64,000 bases of DNA from Sediminibacterium sp. (GTDB taxonomy: Bacteria; Bacteroidota; Bacteroidia; Chitinophagales; Chitinophagaceae), in NCBI GenBank assembly GCA_017537025.1, contig JAFWCB010000007.1, positions 62,001 to 126,000 of the forward strand. Reading direction: 5' to 3'. A model generated the notes under the pieces. It saw only the letters and a list, made by a program, of their open reading frames with translations, was not told the DNA's origin and ran no database searches. Position numbers and translations under genes: made by a program. Shown here in pieces: positions 6,668 to 49,926 of the stretch; within the stretch, counting starts at the first letter, position 1; the number at the start of each line of letters is the position of its first letter.

Positions 6668-6702
6668 CCATTTATTTCGAGCTTCTTACTTATTTTTACC
6701 GT

Positions 6703-29936: not shown

Positions 29937-31049
29937 TTACTCAAACACGATCCCTAATCTAATTGTATTGTTCAATACATTTCTGTTACTATTCGCAGCA
30001 GGTACTAAATACGATATATGTACTCCTCCTCCTTTAAAGTAGGCACTTAACCCCATCGTAAAATACTTTCTATTTCCTCTTATCTGATCTTCCGTATAGT
30101 ATCCCATTCTAGCCCCAAACTTATGATCATACATATACTCCGCTCCAATTGAGTATGCTAATGATTTAAATAACCCACTCCCATCACTAAAACTATTAAA
30201 CCAACTTGCTACCACCGTCCACTTCCTATACTCCGCCGCATTCAGTGAGTCGGTACTCGCATTGCCCGTTTGATTGGGCCAGGCTGGTACCAATAACTTA
30301 TTGATCTCTATACTCGCTCTGATCTTACTCTTCTCCTCTAATACCCATCCATAACTAGCTCCCACTCCTAAGTTCGCAGGTAAAAAATCCTTATCCGTAC
30401 TGGCTGTTCCCGCATACCCCATCTTGCCTCCTAAATTACTCAAACTCACTCCCCAGTTCCAACCTGCCCCATCCTTATTCTCTCCCTTATAGTAAAACGA
30501 TACATCGCCAGCCAGCGATGAACTCGTTCTCGATAATCCCCCCGATGATGAGCTTGCTCCACCCAAGGCACTATTGATAAACTTTAGTGTTACCCCCACT
30601 CCCATCTTATCATTCAGTTTCCTGTTGTATCCAATACTGATATCCCAATCCCTTGGCTTGAACGATCCCAATGGATCTCCACTTACACTCGTTACATTAA
30701 TCGTACCCTGACTATAATACCTGATACCTCCTGTAATACTCGATACCTCATCTATTTGTTTATAACCACTGGCACTTAAAAGGTATATATCCTTTGCACC
30801 CACTTCTCTAAACCAACTCGTATAGGTTAATTGTCCTGCCATCTTCTTCTCCGCAAATAAACTCTTTGCCCCATTCCAGAAAATACTCGCCGCATCAGGC
30901 GTAGCCGTAATACCTGCATCTCCCATACCCGATGCCCGCGCATCCGCCGCAATACGCAAGTGCGGTACCGCTGTGGTCAGTACACTGTTCTGAGAGAAGA
31001 GAGCCATCGGAGTTAAAACTCCGGCGATATATACTAATATTTTTTTCAT
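29937..31049 (-). CDS. porV: PorV-type T9SS outer-membrane shuttle protein
   Basis: 370 residues. After a signal peptide (ending LFSQ), the mature start AVPHLRIAADARASGMGDAG and the FadL-like 14-strand barrel pattern match PorV/LptO. The C-terminal part AEYMYDHKFGARMGYYTEDQ followed by GNRKYFTMGLSAYF is typical of PorV rather than PorQ. In P. gingivalis PorV binds the C-terminal signal of T9SS substrates and hands them to the attachment complex. It lies directly downstream of a giant type A T9SS substrate. Paralogues of PorV/PorQ are common in this phylum, so it may be a dedicated rather than the general copy. Confidence 0.85.
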   Translation of the reverse strand: MKKILVYIAGVLTPMALFSQNSVLTTAVPHLRIAADARASGMGDAGITATPDAASIFWNGAKSLFAEKKMAGQLTYTSWFREVGAKDIYLLSASGYKQIDEVSSITGGIRYYSQGTINVTSVSGDPLGSFKPRDWDISIGYNRKLNDKMGVGVTLKFINSALGGASSSSGGLSRTSSSLAGDVSFYYKGENKDGAGWNWGVSLSNLGGKMGYAGTASTDKDFLPANLGVGASYGWVLEEKSKIRASIEINKLLVPAWPNQTGNASTDSLNAAEYRKWTVVASWFNSFSDGSGLFKSLAYSIGAEYMYDHKFGARMGYYTEDQIRGNRKYFTMGLSAYFKGGGVHISYLVPAANSNRNVLNNTIRLGIVFE

Positions 31050-31085: not shown

Positions 31086-31130
31086 CGTCGGATCGTCATA
31101 CGGACTCCCCGTCTCTCCGTCTCACGGACT
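31086..31130. repeat. GTCT/GACGGA-rich degenerate repeat tract
   Basis: A short run of CGGACTC / CCCGTCT-type elements with mixed 7- and 8-base spacing and both orientations, filling most of the gap between porV and the giant gene. It is less regular than the other tracts. Confidence 0.5.
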
Positions 31131-34100
31131 ATTCCTTCACAAACTGCTGATAGGTTACCCCACTACCCTTAATCACAAGCATATACGCTCCTCTTGCCAA
31201 AGCTGCCGTATTGATACGAACAGGGTTTTGTCCGGTGCCCAGTGTTACCGGTATCTCCTGCAATACTTTACCTGCCATATCCGTAAGTTGTAGCGTGATG
31301 CTCTGCGCCCTATCACTCACTATCGAAGCCACCGTATAACTGCTTGCAGGGTTCGGATATAAGGTCGCGATACTACTTGTGGTATATACAAACTCATCAC
31401 TCCATGGGCCTATACAACCACTATTATTACCCTGTACCTGTAATCTGACATTAGCTCTTGGGTTATAGCTTGAACTGCTTACACCACTCACTGTTTGTTG
31501 GCTGCTGGCATTGTACCAAATATTTACGCCACTATAACTACTATTTAAATTACCGCTGAAGTCGCGCGTGATAACCGGTTTTACCGGTGTGCTTAATACT
31601 GGCAGTAATGCTGTTACGGTTCCCAAACAACCAAAACTGTTCGTTACCGCATAGCTAATAGTAGTATTGCCTTGTGATACTGGTGTTACTTGCCCACCAC
31701 TTGCATTAATCGTTGCTACTCCCATATTACTGCTCGACCATACACCACCAGATAAACTATTCGTAAGCGTATAGCCCGATCCGGTACATACTGGACTAGG
31801 TATCGTAATAGCACTTGGTACTGGTAAGGCGTTAACCGTCCATACACTCGCATTACTTGTTACCGGTGCACAGCCTCCTGTTGGCGTTACGATAACAGTA
31901 TAACTGCCTGCATTGGCTGCTGTTAAAGATGGTACTGTATAGGTATTATTCGTAGCTCCATTAATAGCAGTTCCATTGAGTAACCACTGATAACTAAAGT
32001 TCGGAGAACCGGTAGCTGAAACACTAATACTTGCAGAGGTACCTGCACACTGAGTAAGTGTTGTTATTGGTTGAGTGGTTATGGTTGCCGATGCAATTAC
32101 ATTTAATACACCATTGGTATAAGTGATATTATAATTAGTTAAGCCCGTTCCTGTTGCATTACTAATTGTAATCGGGTATGTGTTAATAGCCGCAGTACCA
32201 GTAGCTCCTACGCTACTTAGCGTTACGCTACTTACTGCATCGCTATTTAATAAACCACTTACACTATATCCATTAGCCGGTAAGCTTAAGTTCAATCCAA
32301 AACACTTACTCTGATTAGTTGCAGTAATCGTTAATGGTGCAGGGTTTACTGTTAATGTGCCGTTGGTATAAGTAATAGCATAGTTAGTGAGTCCCGTTCC
32401 TGTAGCTGCACTAGGAATAATATTATAGGTGCCAACAGCCGCTGTTGCTGCTGTACCTGTGCTTGATAGCGTTACACCACTTACTGCATCCGAACCAACT
32501 AAACCACTTGTTGTGTAAGCAGTTAAGCTCGCTACCGTTCCATAGGTTTTACTGGTAGCGCTTGCTGTGATAGTTAGTGTAGCTGGGTTTACAGTCAGTG
32601 TTCCATTAGTATATGTGATAGCATAGTTAGTTAGTCCAGTTCCTGTAGCGGCACTTGGTACAATATTATAAGTTCCTATTGCTGCTGTTGCTGCAGTACC
32701 TGTGCTTGATAGTGTTACACTACTTACAGCATCCGAACCAACTAAACCACTTGTTGTGTAAGCAGTTAAGCTCGCTACCGTTCCATAGGTTTTACTGGCA
32801 GCACTCGCTGTGATGGTAAGTGTAGCTGGGTTTACTGTTAGTGTGCCATTAGTATAGGTAATAGCATAGTTAGTTAGTCCCGTTCCTGTAGCTGCACTTG
32901 GTACAATAGTATAAGTTCCTACAGCCGCAGTTGCTGCAGTACCTGTACTTGAAAGTGTTACACTACTTACTGCATCAGCACCAACTAATCCACTTGTTGT
33001 ATATGCCGTTAAGCTCGCTACCGTTCCATAAGTTTTACTGGCAGCGCTAGCCGTGATGGTTAGTGTAGCTTGGTTTACCGTTAATGTGCCATTGGTATAA
33101 GTAATAGCATAGTTAGTTAATCCCGTTCCTGTAGCTCCACTAGGAATAATATTATATGTGCCGACTGCCGCAGCTGCTGCCGTGCCCGTACTTGATAGTG
33201 TTACACTACTTACTGCATCCGAGTTCACCAAGCCACTTGTTGTATACGCCGTTAAGCTCGCTACCGTTCCATAAGTTTTACTGGCAGCACTCGCCGTGAT
33301 GGTTAGTGTAGCTTGGTTTACCGTTAATATGCCATTGGTATAAGTAATAGCATAGTTAGTTAATCCGGTTCCTGTGGCTGCACTTGGAACAATATTATAA
33401 GTTCCTATAGCCGCAGTTGCTGCACTACCCGAGCTTGATAGTGTTATAGCACTTACTGCATCTGTACCAACCAGTCCACTTGTTGTATATGCACTTAATG
33501 TTGCTGCTGTTCCATAAGTTTTACTAGCAGCACTCGCTGTAATCGTTAATGCTTTTGTTCCAACAATTATATTACCTGTTGCATAAGTAATGTTATAGTT
33601 AGTAGCTGTGAATGTTCCACCAGTTGCTGCGCTTGGGGTAACACTGCCAGTATATGTACCAACTGCTGCAGTAGCTGCTGCTCCTGTACCGTAAGCTACT
33701 GTCACAGAGCCAATAGTCTCGCTGTTTTGCAATCCACTCGATATAAAGGCTGTACTGCCTGCTGCCCCTGTTAATGTTGAACCGTATGTTTTATTGGCAG
33801 TACTAGCTGTAATGGTTAATGCAGCTTGACCAACAACAATATTACCTGTTGCATAAGTAATGTTATAGTTAGTAGCTGTGAATGTTCCACCAGTTGCTGC
33901 GCTTGGGGTAACACTGCCTGTATAAGTTCCAACATTTGCTGTAGCTGCAGAACCTGTTCCATAAGCAACCGTTACGGTTCCAATAGTCTCGCTGTTTTGC
34001 AATCCGCTTGATGTAAACGCAGTGCTGCCTGCTGCTCCTGTTAATGTTGAACCGTATGTTTTATTGGCAGTACTAGCTGTAATGGTTAATGCAGCTTGCG

Positions 34101-37100
34101 CTACAATAATTTTACCGGTTCGATAAGTGATAGTATAATTACTCGCTGTAAATGTTCCACCTGTTGCTGCGCTTGGGGTAACACTACCCGTATAGGAGCC
34201 AACGGCATCTGTTGCGGCAGCTCCTGTTCCATAGGCAACTGTTACACTTCCGATCGTTTCACTGTTTACTAGTCCGCTCGAAATAAAATCTGTACTGCCG
34301 GATACGCCTGTTAAAGTGCTACCATAGGTTTTATTGGCATCTCTATGGGTTATTGTTAAAGCGGCTGCAGAAACAATACTACTAACAGTTGCCACATTTT
34401 GTGATGTTGCCCCCGTGCTGCTACAAACCACATTACCTGTATATGTACCCACTGCTGTGGTGCCGGGTATTCTTACATAAATAGTTGTTGACGCAACATT
34501 ACCACTACTAGGTGTTAAACTAACAGAGCTTCCAAAACCACTACTGGCGCTTGTTGATACCTGATAACCTGTTGGCGCCGTTACTACTAAACTCGCACTT
34601 AACCCTGTACCGCTTACAGAAAAACTGGTGTTAGCTGATGCCGTACCGTATGTAGTGTTTACTGCTGATAAACTACCACTTGTTGTAATCGTTAATACAT
34701 CGGTATTACGGAATACAGAAACTTTATTGCTAAGCTGATTAGCCACTGCCAAATCGGGCTTGCCATCTCCATCTATATCCCCAATAGCTACTGCTGTTGG
34801 AGCTGTACCCGTTGTAAAATCTACTTTAGCCGCAAAACTGCCGCTGCTAATACTGCCACTGCTACTCGTATTGCGGAATACAGAAACCTTATTGCTGTTA
34901 GAATTAGCCACCGCCAAATCGGGCTTGCCATCTCCATCTATATCCCCAATAGCTACTGATAGTGGAGCTGAACCCGTTGTAAAGTCAACCTTTGCCGCAA
35001 AACTGCTGCTGCTTATACTGCCACTACTACTCGTATTACGGAATACAGAAACCGTATTGCTGTTAGAATTAGCCACCGCCAAATCGGGCTTGCCATCCCC
35101 ATCTATATCCCCAATAGCTACTGATAGTGGACCTGAACCCGTTGTAAAGTCAACCTTTGCCGCAAAACTGCTGCTGCTAATACTGCCACTACTTGAAGTA
35201 TTGCGTAATATAGAAACATTGTCTGAGCTACTATTGGCTACTGCCAAATCGGGCTTGCTATCCCCATCCAAATCACCGATCGCTACAGAATACGGTTGTG
35301 CTCCTGTTGTAAAGTCCACCTTAGCCGCAAAACTGCTACTGGTAATACTGCCACTGCTACTCATATTACGATAGATAGAAACCGTACTGCTAAACTGATT
35401 AGCTACCGCCAAATCGGGCTTGCCATCCCCATCCAAATCACCAATAGCTACCGAATATGGTTGTGTTCCTGTTGTAAAATCTACCTTAGCCGCAAAACTG
35501 CCGCTACTAATACTTCCATTGCTACTCGTATTGCGTAATACAGAAACTGTATTGCCGTTAAAATTAGCCACCGCCAAATCGGGCTTGCCATCCCCATCTA
35601 TATCCCCTATAGCTACTGATAGTGGACCTGAACCCGTTGTAAAGTCAACTTTTGCTGAAAAACTGCCGCTGCTAATACTTCCACTGCTACTCGTATTGCG
35701 GAATACAGAAACTGTATTGCTGTTATAATTGGCCACCGCCAAATCGGGCTTACCATCCCCATCCAAATCGCCGATGGCTACTGAATAAGGATTAGGTCCT
35801 GTTGTAAAATCTACTTTTGCAGATATATCTCCACTGGTAATACTGCCTTTATTGGGACTAAAAGTAGGTGTAAATTTAGTGGTGCTTGCACAGGCTAAAC
35901 CAGAACTTGTATTAAGTTCGGTAATATAATCGAAGCAAGCACCTGTGGGTACGGTTACTGTTAAACTGGTTGTTGTAGCTGCCGTAACCGTTGCCCTTGT
36001 TGCACCGAAGAAAACAATATTATTTGTGGTGGTTGTATTAAAATTAGTACCCGTAATAGTAACTGCATCACCCGGTTTAGCAGATGTTGGAGTGAAGGAG
36101 GTAATAGTAGGTTGGATATCCGCATTTCTTAAAACAGACACATTATCACTATTAAAATTCGCAACAGCCAAATCGGGCTTGCCATCCCCATCCAAATCGC
36201 CTATAGCTACGGAAGCTGTACCATTACCCGTTGTAAAATCCTGCTTCGCTGCAAAGCTGCTGCTTCCTATACTGCCACTGGTAGCTGTATTACGTAAAAC
36301 GGAAACAGTATTTGCCGCCTGATTAGCAGCAGCCAAGTCGGGTTTGCCATCCCCATCTATATCTCCTATAGCTACTGCTATTGGAAATTGCCCTGTTATA
36401 AAATCTACCTTAGCTGCAAAACTGCTACTCGTTATACTTCCACTGCTACTCGTATTGCGGAATACAGAAACTGTATTGCTGTTATAATTGGCCACCGCCA
36501 AATCAGGCTTGCCATCCCCATCCAAGTCGCCAACTGCTACCGATAAAGGGTTGCTTCCTGTTGTAAAATCCACCTTAGCCGCAAAACTACCGCTTCCAAT
36601 ACTACCACTGGTAGCGGTATTACGCAAAACAGAAACAGTATTTGAACCCTGATTCACAACAACCAAATCGGGCTTGCCATCCCCATCCAAATCACCCATA
36701 GCTATAGATGTCGGAGTACCACCTGTTGTAAAATCCTGCTTTGGTGCAAAGCTACCGCTTCCTATACTGCCATTGGTTGAAGTATTACGAAATATAGAAA
36801 CCGTACCTGAATTTCTATTCAGAACCGCCAGATCAGGCTTGCCATCCCCATCTACATCCCCAATGGCTACGTAATAAGCACCACTACCTGTTGTATAATC
36901 CACCTTAGCTGCAAAACTGCCGCTGCTTATACTGCCACTGGTTGAAGTATTACGCAAAACAGAAACTTTATTTGACCCCTGATTCGCAATAGCCAAGTCG
37001 GGCTTGCCATCCCCATCCAAATCGCCAACCGCTACCGATATAGGATTGGTTCCTGTTGTAAAATCCTGCTTCGCTGCAAAGCTTCCGCTTCCTATGCTGC

Positions 37101-40100
37101 CACTGGTTGAGGTATTGCGAAATACAGAAACCGTATTTGAGGTATAGTTCGCAATTACCAAATCGGGCTTGCCATCCCCATCCAAATCGCCTATAGCCAC
37201 TGAAATGGGACTAAAAGCTGTTGTAAAATCCTGCTTCGCTTCAAAATCGCCAGTACCGATACTGGTTTTAGCCAAACTATAAATAGGGTTAAAATTGGCC
37301 AAACTGGCACAAGCTAAACTACTTCCTGTATTTAATAAGGTAATAGAACCATAGGTGGCACCGGTTGGTACGGTCACCGTTAAACTGGTAGTTGTAGCTG
37401 CCGTAACCGTTGCCCTTGTTGCACCAAAGAAAACAATATTATTGGTGGTCGTTGTATTAAAATTAGTACCAGTAATAGTAACCGCATCACCCGGTTTGGC
37501 TAATGTTGGCGTGAAAGAAGTGATGGTGGGTGGGATATCTGCATTTCTTAGAACAGATACCGTACCGCTGCTATTTGCAATCGCCAAATCAGGCTTGCCA
37601 TCTCCATCTATATCCCCAATTGCTACTGAACGAGGAGATGAGCCCGTTGCAAAGTCTACCTTAGCCGCAAAACTACTACTCGCAATACTTCCACTGCTAC
37701 TGGTATTACGATAAATAGAAACCGTATTGCTACCGTTATTAACCACTGCCAAATCGGGCTTCCCATCCCCATCTATATCCCCAATAGCTACTGAAAATGG
37801 AGTAAAACCCGTTGTAAAGTCAACCTTAGCCGAAAAACTGCTGCTCGTAATACTACCACTGCTACTCGTATTGCGTAATACAGAAATGCCACCGTTAAAA
37901 TTAGCCACTGCCAAATCGGGCTTCCCATCCCCATCTATATCCCCAATAGCTACTGATATTGGAACTGAGCCCGTTGCAAAGTCCACATTAGTCGCAAAAC
38001 TGCTGCTGCTAATACTGCCACTGTTACTCGTATTACGTAATACAGAAACATTGTCTGAGCTACTATTGACTACTGCTAAATCGGGCTTGCCATCCCCATC
38101 TATATCCCCAATAACTACTGATACTGGAGCTGAACCTGTTGCAAAGTCAACGTTAGCCGCAAAACTGCTACTCGTAATACTGCCAGTACTACTCGTATTG
38201 CGTAATACAGAAACCGTATTGCTACTCTGATTAGCCACTGCCAAATCGGGCTTGCCATCTCCATCTATATCCCCAATAGCTACCCAATATGGACCTGAAC
38301 CCGAACCCGTCGCAAAATCTACTTTAGCCGCAAAACTGCTACTGGTAATACTACCACTGCTACTTGTATTGCGGAATACAGAAACGGTATTGTCGTTAAA
38401 ATTAGCCACTACCAAATCGGGCTTACCATCCCCATCTATATCCCCAATAGCTACAGATAGTGGACCTGAACCCGTTGTGAAGTCAACTTTTGCTGAAAAA
38501 CTGCCGCTGCTAATACTGCCACTACTACTTGTATTGCGGAATACAGAAACTGTATTGCTGTTAGAATTAGCCACCACCAAATCGGGTTTGCCATCCCCAT
38601 CTATATCACCAATAGCTACTGAACGAGTAGCTGCCCCTGTTGTAAAATCTACCTTAGTACTAAAATCATTCGTACCAATACTGGTTTTATTTGGACTGAA
38701 AACTGGTGTAAACTTAGTAGTGCTTGCACAGGCTAAACCAGTACCAATATTAAGTTCCGTGATATAATCGAAGGTTGCACCCGTGGGTACGGTTACCGTT
38801 AAACTGGTAGTTGTAGCTGCCGTAACCGTTGCTTTTGTTGCACCAAAGAATACAATATTATTGGTGGTTGTGGTATTAAAATTAGTACCTGTAATAGTAA
38901 CTGCATCACCGGGTTTAGCAGATGTTGGTGTGAAAGAAGTAATGGTGGGTGGAATGTATGTATTCCTTAGAACAGAAACTGAATTGCTGCTATTATTAGC
39001 CGCCACCAAATCGGGCTTACCATCCCCATCTAGATCCCCAATAGCTACTGATATCGGAGCTGAACCTGTTGCAAAATCTACCTTAGCTGCAAAACTGCCG
39101 CTCCCTATACTGCCACTACTACTCATATTGCGAAATACAGAAACTGTATTAGTGCCATTATTAGCCACTGCCAAATCGGGCTTGCCATCTCCATTTATAT
39201 CCCCAATAGATACTGAAAATGGAATCGACCCTGACCCTATTGCAAAGTCTACCTTAGCCGCAAAACTGCCGCTGCTAATACTACCACTACTCGTATTGCG
39301 TAATAGAGAAACCGTATTATCGTCAGCATTAGCCACCGCCAAATCGAGCTTGCCATCCCCATCTAGATCCCCTATGGCTACTGATACTGGACTTAAGCCT
39401 GTTGTAAAGTCAACCCTAGACCCAAAATTGCTGATAATATTGCCACTACTACTCTCATTGGGGAATATAGAAACAGTACTGTTTGCATAATTAGCCACCG
39501 CCAAATCGAGCTTGCCATCTCCATCTATATCCCCAATAGCTACTGAATATGGAGTCGACCCAGGACCTGTGTAAAAATCCACCTTAGCTGCAAAACTGAT
39601 ACTACCACTGCTACTCGTATTGCGGAATGCAGAAACATTATTGCTGTTTACATTAGCAACCGCCAAATCGGGCTTACCATCTCCATCTATATCCCCAATA
39701 GCTACTGAAAATGGTAGTGTTCCTGTTGTAAAATCTACTTTAGCCGAAAAACTGCTACTAGTTATACTACCACTGCTACTCATATTGCGAAATACAGAGA
39801 CCGCATTGCTGAGACTATTAGCTACCACCAAATCGGGCTTGCCATCCCCATCTATATCCCCAATAGCTACTGAATTTGGAAATGAACCCGTTGTAAAGTC
39901 AACCTTAGCCGCAAAACTGCTACTACTAATACTGCCATTACTACTCGTATTACGATAGATAGAAACCGTATTGCTAAACCTATTAGCCACCGCCAAATCA
40001 GGTTTACCATCCCCATCCAAATCGCCTATGGCTACCGAAAATGGTAATGTTCCTGTTGTAAAATCTACCTTAGTACTAAAATCATTCGTACCTATACTGC

Positions 40101-40461
40101 TTTTATTCGGACTGAAAACTGGCGTAAATTTAGAGTTGCTTGCACAGGCTAAACCACTAATTGTATTAAGTTCGGTAATATAATCGAAGGTTGCACCGGT
40201 GGGTACTGTTACCGTTAAACTTGTTGCTGTTGCTGCCGTAACCGTTGCTTGTGTTGCGCCAAAGAATACAATATTATTGGTTGTGGTGGTATTAAAATTA
40301 GTACCGGTAATAGTAACCACATCACCCGGTTTGGCTGATGTAGGTGAAAATGAAGTAATGGTGGGTTGCGCTAAAAGATTTGTTGATATACCAAAAAAAC
40401 AAAACAAAAACAAGCAAATAAGCTTAACGAAATAAGCGTGTACACGTAAATCCATTTTCAT
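31129..40461 (-). CDS. Giant T9SS-secreted surface protein: 4 x (IPT + 7-blade propeller), 9 MBG domains, Ig-like, type A sorting domain
   Basis: 3110 residues. The order is: a signal peptide (ending LLAQ, residue 32); four modules of one IPT/TIG domain (starting near residues 33, 503, 978 and 1450) plus seven FG-GAP/VCBS blades; a beta domain (about 1925-2030); nine MBG domains (about 2033-2790); Ig-like repeats with Cys pairs (about 2790-3020); and an 80-residue T9SS type A sorting domain (ATLYPNPASS to the C-terminus). Each blade carries GDxDGDGKPDL, an integrin-like calcium-binding loop, giving 28 sites (one reads DGDSK, one DINGDG). It is exported to the cell surface by T9SS. The role is probably adhesion, but no ligand can be inferred. 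PorV is encoded 80 bases downstream. A sensor kinase is divergent, and a palindrome lies 71 bases upstream. Confidence 0.93.
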   Translation of the reverse strand: MKMDLRVHAYFVKLICLFLFCFFGISTNLLAQPTITSFSPTSAKPGDVVTITGTNFNTTTTNNIVFFGATQATVTAATATSLTVTVPTGATFDYITELNTISGLACASNSKFTPVFSPNKSSIGTNDFSTKVDFTTGTLPFSVAIGDLDGDGKPDLAVANRFSNTVSIYRNTSSNGSISSSSFAAKVDFTTGSFPNSVAIGDIDGDGKPDLVVANSLSNAVSVFRNMSSSGSITSSSFSAKVDFTTGTLPFSVAIGDIDGDGKPDLAVANVNSNNVSAFRNTSSSGSISFAAKVDFYTGPGSTPYSVAIGDIDGDGKLDLAVANYANSTVSIFPNESSSGNIISNFGSRVDFTTGLSPVSVAIGDLDGDGKLDLAVANADDNTVSLLRNTSSGSISSGSFAAKVDFAIGSGSIPFSVSIGDINGDGKPDLAVANNGTNTVSVFRNMSSSGSIGSGSFAAKVDFATGSAPISVAIGDLDGDGKPDLVAANNSSNSVSVLRNTYIPPTITSFTPTSAKPGDAVTITGTNFNTTTTNNIVFFGATKATVTAATTTSLTVTVPTGATFDYITELNIGTGLACASTTKFTPVFSPNKTSIGTNDFSTKVDFTTGAATRSVAIGDIDGDGKPDLVVANSNSNTVSVFRNTSSSGSISSGSFSAKVDFTTGSGPLSVAIGDIDGDGKPDLVVANFNDNTVSVFRNTSSSGSITSSSFAAKVDFATGSGSGPYWVAIGDIDGDGKPDLAVANQSSNTVSVLRNTSSTGSITSSSFAANVDFATGSAPVSVVIGDIDGDGKPDLAVVNSSSDNVSVLRNTSNSGSISSSSFATNVDFATGSVPISVAIGDIDGDGKPDLAVANFNGGISVLRNTSSSGSITSSSFSAKVDFTTGFTPFSVAIGDIDGDGKPDLAVVNNGSNTVSIYRNTSSSGSIASSSFAAKVDFATGSSPRSVAIGDIDGDGKPDLAIANSSGTVSVLRNADIPPTITSFTPTLAKPGDAVTITGTNFNTTTTNNIVFFGATRATVTAATTTSLTVTVPTGATYGSITLLNTGSSLACASLANFNPIYSLAKTSIGTGDFEAKQDFTTAFSPISVAIGDLDGDGKPDLVIANYTSNTVSVFRNTSTSGSIGSGSFAAKQDFTTGTNPISVAVGDLDGDGKPDLAIANQGSNKVSVLRNTSTSGSISSGSFAAKVDYTTGSGAYYVAIGDVDGDGKPDLAVLNRNSGTVSIFRNTSTNGSIGSGSFAPKQDFTTGGTPTSIAMGDLDGDGKPDLVVVNQGSNTVSVLRNTATSGSIGSGSFAAKVDFTTGSNPLSVAVGDLDGDGKPDLAVANYNSNTVSVFRNTSSSGSITSSSFAAKVDFITGQFPIAVAIGDIDGDGKPDLAAANQAANTVSVLRNTATSGSIGSSSFAAKQDFTTGNGTASVAIGDLDGDGKPDLAVANFNSDNVSVLRNADIQPTITSFTPTSAKPGDAVTITGTNFNTTTTNNIVFFGATRATVTAATTTSLTVTVPTGACFDYITELNTSSGLACASTTKFTPTFSPNKGSITSGDISAKVDFTTGPNPYSVAIGDLDGDGKPDLAVANYNSNTVSVFRNTSSSGSISSGSFSAKVDFTTGSGPLSVAIGDIDGDGKPDLAVANFNGNTVSVLRNTSSNGSISSGSFAAKVDFTTGTQPYSVAIGDLDGDGKPDLAVANQFSSTVSIYRNMSSSGSITSSSFAAKVDFTTGAQPYSVAIGDLDGDSKPDLAVANSSSDNVSILRNTSSSGSISSSSFAAKVDFTTGSGPLSVAIGDIDGDGKPDLAVANSNSNTVSVFRNTSSSGSISSSSFAAKVDFTTGSAPLSVAIGDIDGDGKPDLAVANSNSNKVSVFRNTSSSGSISSGSFAAKVDFTTGTAPTAVAIGDIDGDGKPDLAVANQLSNKVSVFRNTDVLTITTSGSLSAVNTTYGTASANTSFSVSGTGLSASLVVTAPTGYQVSTSASSGFGSSVSLTPSSGNVASTTIYVRIPGTTAVGTYTGNVVCSSTGATSQNVATVSSIVSAAALTITHRDANKTYGSTLTGVSGSTDFISSGLVNSETIGSVTVAYGTGAAATDAVGSYTGSVTPSAATGGTFTASNYTITYRTGKIIVAQAALTITASTANKTYGSTLTGAAGSTAFTSSGLQNSETIGTVTVAYGTGSAATANVGTYTGSVTPSAATGGTFTATNYNITYATGNIVVGQAALTITASTANKTYGSTLTGAAGSTAFISSGLQNSETIGSVTVAYGTGAAATAAVGTYTGSVTPSAATGGTFTATNYNITYATGNIIVGTKALTITASAASKTYGTAATLSAYTTSGLVGTDAVSAITLSSSGSAATAAIGTYNIVPSAATGTGLTNYAITYTNGILTVNQATLTITASAASKTYGTVASLTAYTTSGLVNSDAVSSVTLSSTGTAAAAAVGTYNIIPSGATGTGLTNYAITYTNGTLTVNQATLTITASAASKTYGTVASLTAYTTSGLVGADAVSSVTLSSTGTAATAAVGTYTIVPSAATGTGLTNYAITYTNGTLTVNPATLTITASAASKTYGTVASLTAYTTSGLVGSDAVSSVTLSSTGTAATAAIGTYNIVPSAATGTGLTNYAITYTNGTLTVNPATLTITASATSKTYGTVASLTAYTTSGLVGSDAVSGVTLSSTGTAATAAVGTYNIIPSAATGTGLTNYAITYTNGTLTVNPAPLTITATNQSKCFGLNLSLPANGYSVSGLLNSDAVSSVTLSSVGATGTAAINTYPITISNATGTGLTNYNITYTNGVLNVIASATITTQPITTLTQCAGTSASISVSATGSPNFSYQWLLNGTAINGATNNTYTVPSLTAANAGSYTVIVTPTGGCAPVTSNASVWTVNALPVPSAITIPSPVCTGSGYTLTNSLSGGVWSSSNMGVATINASGGQVTPVSQGNTTISYAVTNSFGCLGTVTALLPVLSTPVKPVITRDFSGNLNSSYSGVNIWYNASSQQTVSGVSSSSYNPRANVRLQVQGNNSGCIGPWSDEFVYTTSSIATLYPNPASSYTVASIVSDRAQSITLQLTDMAGKVLQEIPVTLGTGQNPVRINTAALARGAYMLVIKGSGVTYQQFVKE
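32093..34366 (-). repeat. Tandem MBG-domain repeat array (nine units)
   Basis: Coding repeats: three units of about 270 bp (KTYGSTLTG subtype, high-coordinate end), five of about 242 bp (KTYGTVASLTAYTTSGLV subtype) and one diverged unit (SKCFGLNL). Units 5-8 are nearly identical at DNA level over tens of bases; for example the stretch around 32500 recurs around 32740. The array should be prone to recombination that gains or loses whole domains in frame. Confidence 0.85.
34700..40366 (-). repeat. Four tandem 1.41-1.42 kb super-repeats, each IPT + seven blades
   Basis: The IPT domains begin near 40365, 38953, 37530 and 36112, a period of about 1415 bp. Within each module seven blades of roughly 160-175 bp repeat. 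Shared DNA includes the segment encoding GDIDGDGKPDLAVAN in almost every blade. Counting blade by blade gives 7, 7, 7 and 7. Confidence 0.88.
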
Positions 40462-40503
40462 AATGCTTCAGTTTTGGTACTATTTTAGTATATAAAACAG
40501 ACG

Positions 40504-40511
40504 TAAAACTA
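40504..40511 (-). promoter_or_regulatory. -7-like box TAGTTTTA(C) of the giant surface protein gene
   Basis: On the minus strand, 43 bases upstream of the start codon at 40461. The nine bases TAGTTTTAC are identical to the box before the response regulator gene (43632-43639), and each lies 20-21 bases downstream of the same palindrome. Confidence 0.55.
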
Positions 40512-40532
40512 TTTGCCAAGAAGATGTTGAAC

Positions 40533-40552
40533 AATAGAGCAGATGCTCTATT
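40533..40552. promoter_or_regulatory. Palindromic operator candidate, copy 1 (AATAGAGCA-GA-TGCTCTATT)
   Basis: Perfect 9-bp arms with a 2-base spacer in the 111-bp divergent region between the giant surface protein gene (minus) and the sensor kinase (plus). It ends 21 bases before the minus-strand TAGTTTTAC box. On the plus strand it overlaps a possible TATTTTTA box (40549-40556) for the kinase, so one site could affect both genes. Confidence 0.7.
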
Positions 40553-40572
40553 TTTAGATGTAATATCAGTTT

Positions 40573-43500
40573 ATGTGTAAAGTGAATTTTGTTATTCTAC
40601 TGCTCTGTGGATGCCTTACAGCAACAGCACAAGGGAATCTCAAATTCTCTACATATAGCGTTAATGAAGGTTTACCGCAAAGTAGCGTATGGAGCATAAC
40701 ACAAGATAAAAATGGCTTTCTTTGGGTAAGTACATCCGATGGGGTTTGCAGATTTGATGGCTTCACATTCAATGTTTATAAAAGCAATCCCAAAAACCCT
40801 CACTCTATTTTAACAGGAAATGAAAATTATTTTTTTAACGATGAGCAATACAACCTTTGGTTAATATCGGCTAAAGGTATTAGCAGATATAATGACGCAA
40901 AAGATAATTTTGATAATATTTTCATCAATAAAAAAGCCATCGAAAATCAGTATTATCCCAAAAATTTCATCTATGGCAAGCGGGATGGTTATATTTGGGC
41001 GGGTGTTGCTAAAAACGGTTTCGTTAAAATTAATACGGCAAATAATACTGCCAAAACCATTACCAATGCTGGAAAATTCAATCTATCAAACAATACTTTC
41101 TGGTCGAAAGGATTTATGGAGAAAGATTGTATCTATGGTATCAATGACTCAGGTTTTTTTAAATACAATGTAACTACAAACACAATTTCGCATGTTACTC
41201 AAAAAGGAAATTCTGTAACGCTTTGTAATCTAAATGAAAATGAAGTACTTAGTTGCACGTCTTTTTTCCTTTATTTCATCAATAAAAAAACATTAGAAGT
41301 TAGGGCAGTACCATTGAATTTACCAAAAGATGTTCAGTTAGTAACCGATATCGAAAGAAATTGGGAAGATTCCTCACAAGTAATACTGGCAACCCCAATG
41401 GGTATCTTATATGTTGATATCGCAACCGGTAAATTGGTAAATGCTTTAACTGATTTCGACCCGGGTAAACAAAATAAGTACTCCTATGCGGAATGTTTTT
41501 ACCACGATAATTCCGGGAATTTTTGGGTAGGATTAAATGGTGATGGACTAAGAAAAATCAGTTACCCTTTTAAAAAATTTAAATTGTATAAAACTAGCAA
41601 TACAAAAAGTAGTATTGTAAAAAGTTTATATGCCAATAAAGAGAAAGTTTATGTAGGCTACTTCAATAATGGTATGGATATTTTTTCAAGGAAAAACGAG
41701 TTTGAACGTAACCTGAATGTGTCGAAAATGGCTGGCATAGCCAATAATAATATTTATGGTATTTTCCCTATCAACGCAACCGATCTTCTTTTGTATGTAT
41801 TTGGTGAGGAACAAAATGTTTTTCTGAGATACTCTACGTTATCAAATAGTTTCACTAATATCACCCCACCCTTTCAAAAATTATTCTCTTTTATCCCCTT
41901 ACTTAAAAATAGCCTTTTCTGTTTTACACAAAAAGCAGATGGTACTTTTATAGGTGCATCGCATAGTTATATTTTCTCCCTGAAATTTGATCATAAAAAA
42001 ATACCTGAACTAAAATTTGTATACCAGCTCCCTAATCAAGACATCAACTGCTTATACAGAGAAACCGATAATGATTACTGGGTGGGTACGCAAACGGGTT
42101 TATTCCATATAAAAAATGGGAAACCGCAAGCAATTCCCTTAGACAAATTATTTTTAATTAAAACCATTGAAAAAGATAATGAAGGTAATATATGGGTAGG
42201 TGGTACTGAAGGTTTGTATATACTCGATAAAAACTATGCTATTAAAAAAATTTATACTGAAAGCAATGGATTACTAAATCAACATATTTATGGTATTCTT
42301 AAAGATAGTATTGGTAATATGTGGTTTAGTACCAATAAGGGCTTGGGCGTTTATTATGTGAAAGAAAAAAAGTTTAGATTTTTTACCAAAGAAGATGGAC
42401 TACAAGCCAATGAATTTAATAGTAAGGCATTTTTCAAAGCATCCGACAATGAACTTTTTTTTGGCGGAATTAATGGTACTAACTCTTTTTATGCTAACGA
42501 AATAAAGAACAACCCCAATACCCCTCCTGTAATCATCAACAGTATAAAATTATTTGATGAGCCATACAAAACAGATAGCGCTTATTGGAAAGTAAAATCA
42601 TTAACACTACCCTACACCGATAATAGTTTAAGCTTTGAATTTGTAATGCCTGAATTTACAAATTCATCACAAAACCAATATTCCTATATGATGGAAGGGG
42701 TTGATAAAAATTGGATTTTTTCAGGCGATAAAAGGTTTGCGCGCTATCCTTCTTTAACACCCGGGCATTATACCTTTAAAGTAAAGGCAAGTAACGATGA
42801 TGGCATTTGGGGAAATGCCATTACCACTATTTCCATAGAAATTGTTCCTCCATTTTGGCAACGTTGGTGGTTTATCTTTTTAACCATATTACTATTCATT
42901 TTATTACTCATTTTTACAGTTGTTTTTATCCAGAAACAACAGTTTAAAAAGAAAATGAAGGCGCTAGAAGTGCAGCACAAAATTCAAATAGAAAGAGAAA
43001 GAATTTCCCGCGATCTCCACGATAATGTGGGTACTCAACTTAGCCTGATTAGTAAAAGTATTCAAGGTATCATGGATGATTCTACCAATATTTCGGAAGA
43101 AGACAAAAAGAAAAAATTAGCTTCAACAGGACAAAGCTCTGTAGAAGTAATTACTGCTTTGAGAGAGACGATATGGGCCTTAAACAAAGAGGCTGTATTA
43201 TTAGAAGACTTTTTCGATCGCTTAAAGTCATTTGCCCAGAAACAATCAGCTCTAAGCCCCGAAACTGAGGTTCAATTTAAAGAAGCAATAGATAACGAAA
43301 CTGTTACATTAAGCCCTACTGAAGCATTAAATCTTTTTAGAATTTGTCAGGAAGCCATTACCAATGCTTTAAAATATAGTAACGCTTCCATCATAGAAAT
43401 TGAGATGAAAACACACCAAAACAAGTTTATATTGACAATTTCAGATAACGGCTCAGGATTCGATTCAAATAAGATTAATACGAACTTACATTATGGAATA

Positions 43501-43593
43501 GAAAATATGAAGCATAGGGCTATAGAAATAAACTGTGAATTATTGATTGAATCGAAAAAAAATGAAGGCACTACAATAACAATAAGCCAGTAA
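40573..43593 (+). CDS. Sensor histidine kinase with periplasmic two-component-regulator propellers
   Basis: 1006 residues. After a signal peptide (ending TAQG) come Reg_prop blades, recognised by WVSTSDGVCRFDG, WVGTQTGLFHI and WVGGTEGLYIL. A Y_Y_Y domain ends near residue 755 and a single membrane helix covers about 764-788. A HisKA_3 dimerisation domain follows with phospho-acceptor H816 in RISRDLHDNVGTQ, then a HATPase_c domain with N931 (EAITNALKY) and the DNGSGFD G-box (near 958). It lacks the receiver/AraC part of hybrid two-component systems, so it signals to the separate regulator downstream. It is divergent from the giant T9SS substrate gene. The signal is unknown; in this family glycans are frequent ligands. 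Confidence 0.93.
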   Translation: MCKVNFVILLLCGCLTATAQGNLKFSTYSVNEGLPQSSVWSITQDKNGFLWVSTSDGVCRFDGFTFNVYKSNPKNPHSILTGNENYFFNDEQYNLWLISAKGISRYNDAKDNFDNIFINKKAIENQYYPKNFIYGKRDGYIWAGVAKNGFVKINTANNTAKTITNAGKFNLSNNTFWSKGFMEKDCIYGINDSGFFKYNVTTNTISHVTQKGNSVTLCNLNENEVLSCTSFFLYFINKKTLEVRAVPLNLPKDVQLVTDIERNWEDSSQVILATPMGILYVDIATGKLVNALTDFDPGKQNKYSYAECFYHDNSGNFWVGLNGDGLRKISYPFKKFKLYKTSNTKSSIVKSLYANKEKVYVGYFNNGMDIFSRKNEFERNLNVSKMAGIANNNIYGIFPINATDLLLYVFGEEQNVFLRYSTLSNSFTNITPPFQKLFSFIPLLKNSLFCFTQKADGTFIGASHSYIFSLKFDHKKIPELKFVYQLPNQDINCLYRETDNDYWVGTQTGLFHIKNGKPQAIPLDKLFLIKTIEKDNEGNIWVGGTEGLYILDKNYAIKKIYTESNGLLNQHIYGILKDSIGNMWFSTNKGLGVYYVKEKKFRFFTKEDGLQANEFNSKAFFKASDNELFFGGINGTNSFYANEIKNNPNTPPVIINSIKLFDEPYKTDSAYWKVKSLTLPYTDNSLSFEFVMPEFTNSSQNQYSYMMEGVDKNWIFSGDKRFARYPSLTPGHYTFKVKASNDDGIWGNAITTISIEIVPPFWQRWWFIFLTILLFILLLIFTVVFIQKQQFKKKMKALEVQHKIQIERERISRDLHDNVGTQLSLISKSIQGIMDDSTNISEEDKKKKLASTGQSSVEVITALRETIWALNKEAVLLEDFFDRLKSFAQKQSALSPETEVQFKEAIDNETVTLSPTEALNLFRICQEAITNALKYSNASIIEIEMKTHQNKFILTISDNGSGFDSNKINTNLHYGIENMKHRAIEINCELLIESKKNEGTTITISQ

Positions 43594-43611
43594 TAGAGCA
43601 AATGCTCTATT
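43592..43611. promoter_or_regulatory. Palindromic operator candidate, copy 2 (AATAGAGCA-AA-TGCTCTATT)
   Basis: The same palindrome as at 40533-40552, differing only in the spacer base. It overlaps the last two bases of the kinase stop codon and lies 20 bases upstream of the TAGTTTTAC box of the response regulator gene. No T-tract follows, so it is not a typical terminator. Confidence 0.7.
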
Positions 43612-43631
43612 GTATAATTATAGGTAACGAC

Positions 43632-43639
43632 TAGTTTTA
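43632..43639 (+). promoter_or_regulatory. -7-like box TAGTTTTA(C) of the response regulator gene
   Basis: A TAnnTTTA element 5 bases before the ATG at 43645, with the palindrome 20 bases further upstream. The same arrangement exists at the giant protein promoter. Confidence 0.5.
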
Positions 43640-43644
43640 CATTC

Positions 43645-44301
43645 ATGAGTTATAAACTTGCCATTGTTGACGATAGCTTTCAAATTATTACCGCACTAAC
43701 AAATGAGCTTAGCCAGTTTAGTGACATTGAAATTGTTGTAAAAGCAAAAAACGGTCAAGATTTTTTAGCGCAATTAAGAGGCCTGCAACCAGAACAACTA
43801 CCTCATTTAGCATTAATGGATATAGATATGCCCTTATTGAATGGTATTGAAACGGTAAGAGTTAGTAGTGTACTGTACGAATCCATGAAATACATTATGC
43901 TTACCGTTTTTGATGACGATGACACCCTTTTTGAGGCTATTAAAGCAGGGGCCGACGGCTACCTATTAAAAGAAGAACAGCCACTTGTTATTCTAAGAGC
44001 AATTAAAGAAGTAATGGAACATGAGGGAGCCCCTATGAGCCCGAGAATCGCAAGAAAAACGTTCGAATTTTTAACCAATAAACAGAACAATTCATCGGAT
44101 GCTGTTCCAACTAATTTATCGCAACGCGAAATGGATATTCTTAAAGGGCTATATGATGGATTAGACTATAAACAAATTGCCAGCCGACTCATTATTAGTC
44201 CTTTTACAGTTCGTAATCATATTACAGCTATATATGATAAGCTACACGTTTCTTCCAAAACAGAAGCTGTGAAATTAGCTATCAAGAATAAATGGATGTA
44301 A
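43645..44301 (+). CDS. NarL/FixJ-type response regulator (receiver + LuxR HTH)
   Basis: 218 residues. The receiver domain has the acidic pair D9/D10, the phospho-acceptor D59 in ALMDIDMPLLNG, a switch Thr in MLTVFDDDD and the conserved Lys in GYLLKEE. The C-terminal LuxR helix-turn-helix is about residues 155-212 (LSQREMDILKGLYDGLDYKQ, then FTVRNHITAIYDKL). It is the obvious partner of the HisKA_3 kinase 51 bases upstream. LuxR-type regulators bind inverted repeats as dimers. The AATAGAGCA palindrome before this gene and before the giant surface protein gene is a natural target (inference). Confidence 0.93.
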   Translation: MSYKLAIVDDSFQIITALTNELSQFSDIEIVVKAKNGQDFLAQLRGLQPEQLPHLALMDIDMPLLNGIETVRVSSVLYESMKYIMLTVFDDDDTLFEAIKAGADGYLLKEEQPLVILRAIKEVMEHEGAPMSPRIARKTFEFLTNKQNNSSDAVPTNLSQREMDILKGLYDGLDYKQIASRLIISPFTVRNHITAIYDKLHVSSKTEAVKLAIKNKWM

Positions 44302-44346: not shown

Positions 44347-45372
44347 TCACCACATATTACGCGGACACCAATCGCCATATTTGTTACCCAACAAAAAACC
44401 AATCAAAATTTCGTGGGTTCCCTTACTCACCGTATTTAATTTAGATGTTTGAATATCATAAGAGTAACCGATATTAATAGTATTGCTCAAATTGATCCCT
44501 AACATCGCGGCAAAACCATCTTGATATCGATATGAGGCCCCCAACCACACCAAATCCTGATATTGGAATTTTGTATTTACATCAAACCCTATCGGAAGTG
44601 GACTAATATATCTGATTAAAGCAGAAGGTAAAAAAGAAACATCTTCAGAAATAGGTATTCGATAACCTGCACTTAAAAACAGATGCGGAATTAATCTACC
44701 CTTTGTTAAAGCAACGGTATTATCTGAAAAAGAAATATTCTGGGGTACAATTTGCTGTGCTGAAAGTCCCAGAAAATAGTCTTTAGAATATAGCCATAAT
44801 CCGGCACTTACATCCGGCTTCAATCTATTCAAAGTACCACTACTGGCAACAGCAGGATCTACCGTAGTAGTCCCAAAATTTAATTTGCTTGCATCTAAAC
44901 TCATATTGGTGATACCCACCGAAATACCTGCCGATAAATTTGTTGTAGGAGATAACCCAATATGATACGCATAAGTGCCATAGGCAGCAAAGCGATTGAG
45001 TGGCCCGGTTTTATCATTCAATATCGTAAACCCAACACCCTGATGCGGGTCTGCTGCCTGATAATCGCGCCAATAGGCTTGTCCGCGGGGGTTCTCTCCT
45101 CTCGCCTTAAAGCCGGTAGCCGTAGTATTATCGTAGGCACTTTTCTTTAATGGCCCATGAATCGTTAAGTAAGTAGTAACCGGTGCATCTTGGAGTCCAA
45201 CCCATTGCATTCTATGACTCGCTTTAACATCCCAATAATTTTCAATACCTGCCACAGCCGGGTTGATGATATAATTATTCATGATGTATTGCGTATAATA
45301 GGGGCGCTGCTGTGCGTTCACAATCCTAACTATCCCTAGTATAAAAATGATATATTTTACTTTACGCCTCAT
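44347..45372 (-). CDS. PorP/SprF family T9SS outer-membrane protein
   Basis: 341 residues. The mature start QQRPYYTQYIMNNYIINPAV and the following HRMQWVGL element are diagnostic of PorP/SprF. The protein is a 14-strand outer-membrane barrel. SprF is required for export of the adhesin SprB, and homologues are encoded next to substrates with type B C-terminal domains, acting as partner-specific anchors. It overlaps the stop of the upstream 1494-residue type B protein by 4 bases (ATGA), so the two form a coupled pair. Confidence 0.93.
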   Translation of the reverse strand: MRRKVKYIIFILGIVRIVNAQQRPYYTQYIMNNYIINPAVAGIENYWDVKASHRMQWVGLQDAPVTTYLTIHGPLKKSAYDNTTATGFKARGENPRGQAYWRDYQAADPHQGVGFTILNDKTGPLNRFAAYGTYAYHIGLSPTTNLSAGISVGITNMSLDASKLNFGTTTVDPAVASSGTLNRLKPDVSAGLWLYSKDYFLGLSAQQIVPQNISFSDNTVALTKGRLIPHLFLSAGYRIPISEDVSFLPSALIRYISPLPIGFDVNTKFQYQDLVWLGASYRYQDGFAAMLGINLSNTINIGYSYDIQTSKLNTVSKGTHEILIGFLLGNKYGDWCPRNMW

Positions 45373-48300
45373 CGAATAATTGTTACAGAACCTGAAATAA
45401 TTTTTCTTCCATTTTTAGGATTGATCACATAATAATAAGTACCAATGGGCAAAGGTTTTCCATTCACAGTGCCATCCCAATCCACTGAATATTCTATACT
45501 GCTAAATACTAATTGCCCGTATCGATTATATACATCCACCGTTGCACCGGGGTAACTTTCTAAATACTGAATGCGCCAACGATCATTGATACCATCTCCA
45601 TTGGGTGAAAACGCATTAGGTACAATAGGTGATAATAATAATTTTACGAACATCGTATCACTAACCGTACAACCTCCAATACCTGTTAGATAAAGCTTAT
45701 AAGTAATATCTCCTAATGGTGTTGTAACAGGAGTAGAATCGGTAGGATCATTTAAGTAAGTGGGCGGTGTCCACATATAACTCAAATTGGTTCCATAATA
45801 ATAAATAGGCTTGATCTTAAGATTGCCGCCTTCCAACACATTAACACGCTTGGGCAGCGTAAGTTTGGGATAAGGATATACAATTAAATTCTTACTTACC
45901 GTATCACTCACACAGCCTTGTGCATTGAAAAAATAATAACTGATGGTATAAGTGCCCGAATCGTTGAATTGTCTGGATGGGTTTTTCAAAGTGGAACTAA
46001 AACCCTGTCCCAAATCCCAACGCCAACTCGCTGCACTGCTACTCATACCATTTCCATTATCCATAAAATAAACCGTATCACCAACACAGGCGGTACTAAC
46101 ATTCATACCGAGGTTTGCCTTTGGCCAGGGATAAATATTATTGAAAGATTTAGTTAGTGAATCTTTACATCCATCTTTTGAAGTGATGCTGAGTTTCACA
46201 TTAACCGGACCAACAGCACTGTATTTATGCGTAGGCTCTTTGAGTAGTGAAGGAGTAGCATCAGATGGGTCGCCAAAATTCCAGAGATAACTAAATAAAG
46301 ATTCAGAAGCGTCTGCAATCGTAGATTGATTGGTAAAACTAGCCCTGCCATCGGGTAAGCAAACTACAGTAGGTAAAGTGAAAGCAGGCTGTGGCAAGGG
46401 ATTCACTTTAATTGCTTGTTGATTGATGGGACTTACACATCCACTATCCGTTATCACTTGCAAGCTAACATTGTAGGTTTGTGCTGTTGGGTATACTCTA
46501 TTGAAGCTGGTAACTGAAGTTCTGGTTTCATTTACACCATCTCCATAATTCCATTTGCGCTGTGCGATATTGCTGAAATTAGCCACGGAACTATCTGTAA
46601 ATGCAATATTATTCTTTTCGCATAAAATAGCTTGAACACCCCATTTAGCAACCGGTGAAGGCCATACAGTTATAGATTGTGCAGCAGAATCGGTACAGCC
46701 GGCCGAATTGGTTACCTTATACTTTAATGCATAAGTGCCTGCAGCCAAAGTTTGCGGACTATACAAGCCAGCGGAATTAATTCCTGTTCCTGAATATACA
46801 GCGGTGTTGGTAGACACAGCAGATACAAATGTGCCTTGCGAAATTTGTCGAGGCGCTGCTTCATTACAAATATCACGTGGTTTCACAAAGCTTACAGCCG
46901 GACTATTATTCAAAATAATTACTTTTTTAAATGATCTTGAACAAACAGATGATTGTCCGGAAGCGGCAACCAATGCAATCGTAATACTTTTATTGGCCGG
47001 AGAAGCCGCCGATGCAAATGCACTATACTTGGTTGCATATACTTTATTAAATGTTGGGTCTTCATCTCTCACCTTTGTTAATGGTGCATTCAATGTATCC
47101 CAATAAATATCCAAGCGAGTAATGGTACCAAAATCAACAGTAGAAGTGTTAGTGATTCTAACAGAATCGTTCACACAAATAGGCGTTAATTGCTCTACGA
47201 ATTTTGAGTTAGGGATACTTCCATTTACAGTGAATGGTTTACTAAGTGTAGATACACAACCGTTATTAGATGTAACCGTTAAAGTAACCGTATAATTATC
47301 TGCTTTATTATACTTGGGAGCAGGATTTTTTTGTGTGGTCATACCAGCCACAACTGTGGGCCCCGGGCTAACCGGATTACTGCCATCATTAAACTTCCAT
47401 AAATAAGTAAAAGAGGCTTGGGAACCATCTGCTATGGAGGTAGTATCTGTAAAAGGAGCATTCGCATCTGCCAAACAAACTTCTGGTAATACAAAACCTA
47501 TTTGAGGTAAGGGATTAATTTTGAATTGTGGACTTAATCTAAAAGTATCGCTCAAACAACCGGTATTCGATTCTGCTACAAGCCTTACATCTTTATTACC
47601 CCAAGCACTGTAGGTTGTAGATTGAGAGGCATTAGTAGTAACATCTGCAAATCCACCCCCGTTATCCAAATTCCAATTATATCGAGTTATTGTATTACCG
47701 GCTGTGCCCGCTTCAATAGTTGAAGTATTGGTAAATACAATAGATGATTTTTCGCAGAGCAATGTGGGCACTGTGAAAGAAGCAACCGGTTTTGCAGAAA
47801 CGTTGATATTCTTAGTGGCAGTGGCAATACAACCAAAATCGGTAATAGAAGTAAGTTTCGCTGTATAGTTTCCTCCTGTACTAAAAGTTTTTGAAGGATT
47901 TTGAACAGTTGCTGTGGTAGCGTCACTAAATTCCCAATTCCATTTAATGATGGGTCTTCCCAAACCATCCGATGCATCGGTTAAAGCTATGGCAGTATTG
48001 ATGCACCCATTTGAACTAACGGTAAAGTCTGCTGTGGGTGGTGCATTTACAACAACATTATCAGTAAAATCTTGCGTATTCGTATTACTACATCCATCTG
48101 ATTGTACCGTATTGGATGTTGTGGTTAGTTTAACCGGATAAGTTCCTGAGGCATTGAAAGTATATACCTGTGGGATACGGTATAAATAGTAAGTCTTTCC
48201 GTTTGAAATATAGGTCGAATCATACCCTGGCGAACCGGAAGGCGTATAAGTGAAAGTGGAGGGTCCAACTAAAGAACCATTATTATTGAAATCAACTACA

Positions 48301-49853: not shown

Positions 49854-49926
49854 CAGATTGGGGGTATCTTTAAAATTCAAGGGTATAAAAATAAGCCTTG
49901 GAAGCCAAATACCATTTATAGACACG

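Follow-up and report, generated by a model that had tools for sequence, protein, structure and literature searches.

Which genes are controlled by a sensor kinase and its adjoining response regulator, and can the answer be read from the surrounding DNA? The question is raised by a locus of Sediminibacterium sp. in which the genes of a giant surface protein and a sensor histidine kinase diverge, a NarL/LuxR-type response regulator gene follows the kinase gene, and a 20-bp palindrome occurs both between the divergent genes and ahead of the regulator gene. The window analyzed here is the whole 64,000-nucleotide stretch that holds this locus (assembly GCA_017537025.1, contig JAFWCB010000007.1, positions 62,001 to 126,000 of the forward strand), and positions are those of the window unless another locus is named. 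Comparison with related loci makes it likely that the regulator activates itself and the adjacent type IX secretion system (T9SS) surface protein via a private local operator.

The propeller-domain kinase would activate the regulator, with phosphorylation presumably being required, and the activated regulator would bind as a dimer centered about 43 bp upstream of the transcription start, next to an RNA polymerase positioned at a box of the TAnnTTTG type. Once bound, it would raise transcription from two sigma-A promoters, its own and that of the giant T9SS surface protein. As its own promoter would lie across the end of the kinase gene, the mRNA of the regulator is predicted to be leaderless or nearly leaderless, and the regulon would be local and private to the kinase/regulator pair.

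Two Palindromes at One Locus

The predicted target is a T9SS-sorted surface protein of 3110 aa (31129..40461, minus strand) with Pfam matches to FG-GAP, TIG, MBG_2 and Por_Secre_tail; it has the features of T9SS cargo, with a Por_Secre_tail score of 29.6 bits (cut-off 27) and an N terminus that is exported-like by a hydrophobicity rule. Divergent from it is the gene of the 1006 aa sensor histidine kinase (40573..43593, plus strand; Reg_prop, Y_Y_Y, HisKA_3 and HATPase_c), which is followed by that of the 218 aa NarL/LuxR-type response regulator (43645..44301, plus strand). The regulator carries the domains of its family, Response_reg (PF00072, 63.4 bits) and a C-terminal GerE (PF00196, 60.7 bits), and alignments place N191 as its recognition-helix residue; by sequence, its best solved-structure relatives are VraR, NarL and others.

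Putative operator 1, AATAGAGCA-GA-TGCTCTATT, occupies positions 40533..40552 between the divergent giant-protein and kinase genes, and putative operator 2, AATAGAGCA-AA-TGCTCTATT, occupies 43592..43611, where it starts inside the kinase stop codon (43591-43593) and overlaps it by two bases. Both are exact, perfect 9-2-9 palindromes with no strand assigned, and both lie precisely where the initial annotation had placed them. With up to three mismatches to AATAGAGCA-NN-TGCTCTATT allowed, they are the sole matches in the window; 100 shuffles of the window gave a mean of 0.08 matches and two were reached in none, a test that is post hoc, as the pattern was derived from the window itself. At two or fewer mismatches they alone match in the whole assembly (G000; 3,194,529 bases, 29 contigs), which is 94.74% complete and whose missing portion could hold a further copy, and this absence of other copies from the assembly is what a local regulon would show. 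Exactly three mismatches yield five further matches in the assembly, each within an open reading frame (ORF) (5/5).

Short inverted repeats do arise by chance, and the window has three perfect 9-2-9 palindromes in all, the third of which (9944-9963, ATTATCGGTAAACCGATAAT) has different letters and lies within an ORF. Chance or a dispersed repeat would sit poorly with two genome copies whose place and spacing are conserved in relatives, and the probability left to this explanation is next to none. The initial annotation had itself named many copies across the genome as the outcome that would tell against its proposal; the whole-genome scan gave two at two or fewer mismatches, and a dispersed repeat was rejected for this reason.

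Promoter Boxes and Predicted Starts

On the strand of the giant gene, operator 1 is followed after 21 bases by the putative -7 box TAGTTTTA (40504..40511, minus strand), and operator 2 is followed after 20 bases by the same putative box of the regulator gene (43632..43639, plus strand), from whose end to the ATG there are 5 nt. Both spacers are as initially annotated, as are the box coordinates in so far as they cover the eight bases of TAGTTTTA; the 9-mer TAGTTTTAC has to be placed instead at 40503-40511 (minus strand) and 43632-43640 (plus strand). As this 9-mer occurs 5 times over both strands of the window, it proves little by itself and the spacing is more telling. At both promoters the box has five of the six fixed letters of TAnnTTTG, fitting save for the last base. 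TAnnTTTG is the sigma-A box of Bacteroidota, positioned at -12 to -5 in Flavobacterium psychrophilum (PMC9723704), with the same consensus given in PMC7366714, and the sigma-A transcription start is taken as 5 nt beyond the box (PMC9723704).

From this published box position, transcription of the giant-protein gene is predicted to start at 40499 (minus strand) with a 38-nt leader, and that of the regulator gene at 43644 (plus strand), 1 nt before the ATG, leaving the message leaderless or nearly so. This would put operator 1 at -53 to -34 and operator 2 at -52 to -33, with their centers at about -43. LuxR-type activators commonly bind in this region (-53 to -33), and activators that abut the upstream promoter element usually have a fixed operator-box spacing. 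A sigma-70 promoter scan was uninformative (12 promoters, shuffle mean 18.1).

If the regulator binds both sites, it might still repress at one or both of them, for example by shutting off a kinase promoter with which operator 1 overlaps, and polymerase can also be blocked by binding near -43. A speculative candidate -7 box of the kinase gene, TATTTTTA (40549..40556, plus strand), which scores 5.5 of 6 and is separated by 16 nt from the ATG of the kinase, does overlap operator 1, so that repression of the kinase is possible, though that operator 1 represses the kinase promoter is itself speculation. The 20-21 bp spacing to the box recurs, however, at regulator and exported-gene promoters, and a repressor could do without such constancy; repression in place of activation is considered unlikely. 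The initial annotation had also allowed that the kinase gene may be affected from the shared site, but its activation finds no support, as there is no box 20-22 bp past operator 1 on the kinase side in the window, and the kinase ATG begins 20 bp after the palindrome.

Fixed Spacing Across Many Loci

The spacing was followed in 127 regulators, of which 121 were distinct and had sufficient upstream sequence and 114 remained once near-identical upstreams were removed. Of 80 loci, 40 chosen by title as Bacteroidota were used, a choice that passed over L166 and perhaps other Bacteroidota loci; L130, L131, L192, L209 and L279 yielded no regulator or start. With the box picked independently of the palindrome, palindromes of at least 7/9 pairs numbered 14 at a gap of 21 and 3 at a gap of 20, compared with 0-2 at any other gap from 3 to 61, and those of at least 6/9 pairs numbered 26 and 6, compared with 0-5 elsewhere. 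Boxes scoring at least 5 stood beside the ATG in 47 of the 114 upstreams, and in 21, 15 and 8 in windows 30, 60 and 90 nt farther upstream; the box-to-ATG distance was most often 4 nt (19/73).

A further scan covered 870,237 bases in 49 loci, which include 21 of the 80 and exclude the near-twins L094, L097, L098, L109 and L220. At a site-plus-box score of at least 22, there were 52 sites at a gap of 20-21 against 2-9 at each of 12 decoy pairs, the decoy spacings serving as a guard because the score thresholds were set after part of the 49 loci was known. In both the 114 upstreams and the 49 loci, the peak at gap 20-21 puts the operator a constant distance ahead of the adjoining promoter box, as is characteristic of class II activation.

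The 52 strong sites precede a regulator gene in 17 cases, a kinase gene in 3 and another gene in 29, with no gene within 300 nt in the remaining 3. Predicted leaders are -1 to 6 nt at 16 of the 17 regulator sites (23 nt at the remaining one), 0, 13 and 39 nt at the three kinase sites, and 6-209 nt at the 29 other-gene sites; predicted leaderless regulators number 16 at gap 20-21 and 0 in each decoy spacing. By this layout the regulators would have leaderless mRNAs, a type of message that is reportedly uncommon in the phylum: the two papers above give 5.5% leaderless mRNAs in F. psychrophilum (PMC9723704) and about 3.7% of leaders under 10 nt in Bacteroides thetaiotaomicron (PMC7366714). By a simple N-terminal hydrophobicity rule of our own making, 28 of the 29 other-gene sites are followed by genes encoding exported-like proteins, compared with 138 of the 344 remaining ORFs of the same loci. 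A T9SS sorting domain was found in 5 of the 11 putative targets scanned with Pfam (one, L123, with a site score of 21), and a regulator site and an other-gene site occur together in 13 of the 49 loci. At L223, one palindrome (9262-9281) has boxes TAGATTTG and TAGTTTTG 21 bp off on either side, before two divergent exported-like genes.

The palindromes could also work in RNA, as hairpins, terminators or processing sites; each is able to form an 8-bp hairpin, and a 71-nt fold on the giant-gene strand beats 198 of 200 shuffles (z -2.64), whereas the remaining two stretches give unremarkable values (z -0.96 and -1.38). Judged by the box position, however, each site is upstream of its own start, and several relatives have the site between divergent genes, outside both predicted transcripts. 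The spacing is also kept in many relatives despite just 6-7 of 9 pairs, and 6 terminator-like hits included neither palindrome. An RNA hairpin or terminator was judged unlikely, given the position of the sites upstream of the predicted starts and their absence from the terminator-like hits, and very little probability is assigned to a function in RNA of any kind.

Close Relatives

Regulator matches at E of 1e-30 or lower were found in 20 of 101 genomes of the genus, and a close regulator (best E 4.3e-58 or lower) in 11 of them, the present genome included. All eight other regulators at about 52% identity or more have a related upstream site with at least 10 of 12 core letters, so that the palindrome which the initial annotation had proposed to look for beside orthologous kinase/regulator pairs is present there in related form. 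The whole arrangement is repeated in G106 and, as far as the contig extends, in G066. Sites before an ORF with FG-GAP/TIG/CHU_C (2270 aa) and before the regulator gene are each 21 bp from TAGATTTG in G106; in G066, one site lies between the kinase gene and a divergent exported ORF that is truncated by the contig end, and the other before the regulator gene. The second site of G305 is upstream of a gene whose 3005-aa product carries Por_Secre_tail.

A second clade (G087, G017, G084, G011 and G090) is organized differently, with the kinase gene divergent from the regulator gene and the site between them; a further site stands after the regulator gene, before an exported protein of about 350 aa, in which no Pfam match was found in the one scanned. 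G083 and L106 are truncated by contig ends. The kinase of G087 is present as two ORFs (L093, 4033-6992, minus strand), compared with a single 986-aa ORF in G017, pointing to a broken gene or an assembly error.

The exact motif AATANNGCANNTGCNNTATT occurs in 7 of the 11 genus genomes with a close regulator, where all 10 of its sites (10/10) are at the regulator locus. It also occurs as a single copy in each of 7 of the 90 remaining genus genomes; two of these background matches (L040 and L043) were inspected.

Site Letters and the Recognition Helix

Site letters were compared with the recognition helix in the 97 of 114 regulators that fit the helix expression, 50 of which have a site of at least 8/12 core letters; the core used in site selection puts no constraint on half-site bases 5 to 7. 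At base 5, G is present in 13/16 half-sites of regulators with N191 and in 2/64 of those with K191, and C in 13/14 of those with T191, while base 7 is G in 12/16, 11/14 and 2/64 half-sites for N191, T191 and K191, respectively. A plain permutation of the helix code, in which relatedness is ignored, gave 0 of 20000. Residue 191 aligns with the residue following TVK in NarL, which contacts bases there. The helix of L275, TVRNHIANIYEKLHV, differs from TVRKHIANIYEKLHV in L267, L244, L255 and L280 solely by a K to N change, and the left half-site is TAGTGCA in L275, TACTACA in L267, L255 and L280, and TACCACA in L244.

The second-best regulator match in the same genome, L009 (44% identity; G000:C19, around 298300-299040), has a different palindrome, ACCTGCAATATTTCGCAGGT (7/9 pairs), located 21 bp before TAAGTTTG, a box ending 4 nt before the ATG. 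The next gene, which putatively encodes a lipoprotein, is preceded by a diverged copy of it at 21 bp from TAGGTTTG, and a pattern built on the L009 palindrome matches the genome exactly at a single position. In a more distant group of regulators (L057-L072), CACATATTTATGTG-like repeats apparently lie ahead of the regulator gene and may represent a different specificity at a comparable position.

These data bear on whether the sites belong to another DNA-binding protein that the regulator merely adjoins. A similar palindrome, AATACCGC...GCGGTAT, is present ahead of an unrelated gene in five genomes (G017, G084, G087, G090 and G100), so look-alike sites for other proteins do exist. Such ownership is at odds with the exclusive location of the exact motif at the regulator locus of regulator-bearing genus genomes, with half-site letters that track the helix of the adjacent regulator, and with the nearest paralog in the same genome having a different palindrome at the same spacing; its probability is put as small. 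The look-alike palindrome (L101-L105, near 6319-6878) lies about 40-50 bp before an ORF in G087, G084, G017 and G090 and overlaps the ORF start in G100, and the protein downstream of it in L102 has WG repeats.

Weight of the Evidence

Several results weigh against activation by the regulator through a conserved palindromic operator. Position alone does not tell the sign of regulation. A palindrome of at least 7/9 pairs at gap 20-21 is lacking in 97 of the 114 regulators, and one of 6/9 pairs in 82. Symmetry is weak in three of the eight close relatives (5, 5 and 6 of 9 pairs in L186, L187 and L092, respectively); the site of L186/G403, with its 5/9 pairs, is accompanied by a second site without a gene within 300 nt, and that of L187/G180, with 5/9 pairs, is at gap 19, with no second site found there. 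In G106, where the arrangement is otherwise repeated, the sites have 6/9 pairs, and because the longest ORF contains operator 1 in its 5' part, translation has to be assumed to begin at a later in-frame start (2224 aa). A helix-masked tree leaves 3 to 5 independent contrasts for the co-variation of helix and site, which are not significant, with the direction mostly agreeing.

The core of the initial annotation, that the regulator at 43645 binds both sites, regulates itself and controls the giant protein, is supported at the level of sequence comparison by the uniqueness of the sites in the genome, their conservation in relatives, the fixed spacing, the linkage to regulator-bearing genomes and the co-variation with the helix. 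This core is well supported by comparison and can be extended beyond the two sites of the present genome to a layout that recurs. A broader proposal, held at about even confidence, is that Bacteroidota propeller-kinase/LuxR-type pairs are insulated local switches, in which a private palindrome at about -43 would be placed in the regulator's own leaderless promoter and in the promoters of one or two neighboring exported proteins. Residue 191 would read half-site bases 5 and 7, specificity would drift while geometry stays, and sequence could then reveal the operators and targets of many orphan pairs.

Relation to Known Systems

LuxR-type regulators activating themselves and a neighbor are already known. 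The NarL/LuxR (GerE) regulators, such as NarL, VraR and DesR, have the same receiver and GerE domains and a palindromic site beside the promoter; the present case differs in its Bacteroidota sigma-A spacing, its predicted leaderless regulator promoter across the kinase end and its one-locus operator, and this spacing, promoter and set of private local operators make it a variant of the known kind. LuxR-type class II activators (site near -42) also have a 20-bp inverted repeat abutting the upstream promoter region, but here the partner is a two-component receiver and not an acyl-homoserine-lactone domain, and the spacing is measured to TAnnTTTG and not to a sigma-70 -10 box. Bacteroides hybrid two-component systems share the propeller and Y_Y_Y sensor and the local control of neighboring surface genes; they are single proteins with AraC-type output, whereas the kinase and LuxR-type regulator here are separate genes. 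PorX/PorY with sigma-P is a two-component system acting on T9SS-related genes via an extracytoplasmic function (ECF) sigma factor, in contrast to the predicted sigma-A promoter and LuxR-type regulator here, whose target would be T9SS cargo. No earlier description of this layout was recognized in a literature search that had most subscription journals outside its reach, so absence from print is not implied.

Many Bacteroidota propeller-kinase/regulator pairs adjoin surface-protein genes but have no known operator. For each of these pairs, a fixed spacing combined with a private palindrome would name the operator and the gene it controls and would provide a recognition rule that can be tested, and the targets of such sensor systems may therefore be predictable from sequence.

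Neighboring Genes

A PorV-like gene (29937..31049, minus strand; PF19572, 149.5 bits) immediately follows the giant gene on its strand, at a distance of 79 bp. It is possibly co-transcribed with the giant gene, and its product is possibly a dedicated partner of the giant T9SS cargo. On the other side of the locus, a PorP/SprF gene (PF11751) is convergent with the regulator gene and is followed by a 1518-aa ORF, the two together occupying 44347-49925 of the window (minus strand).

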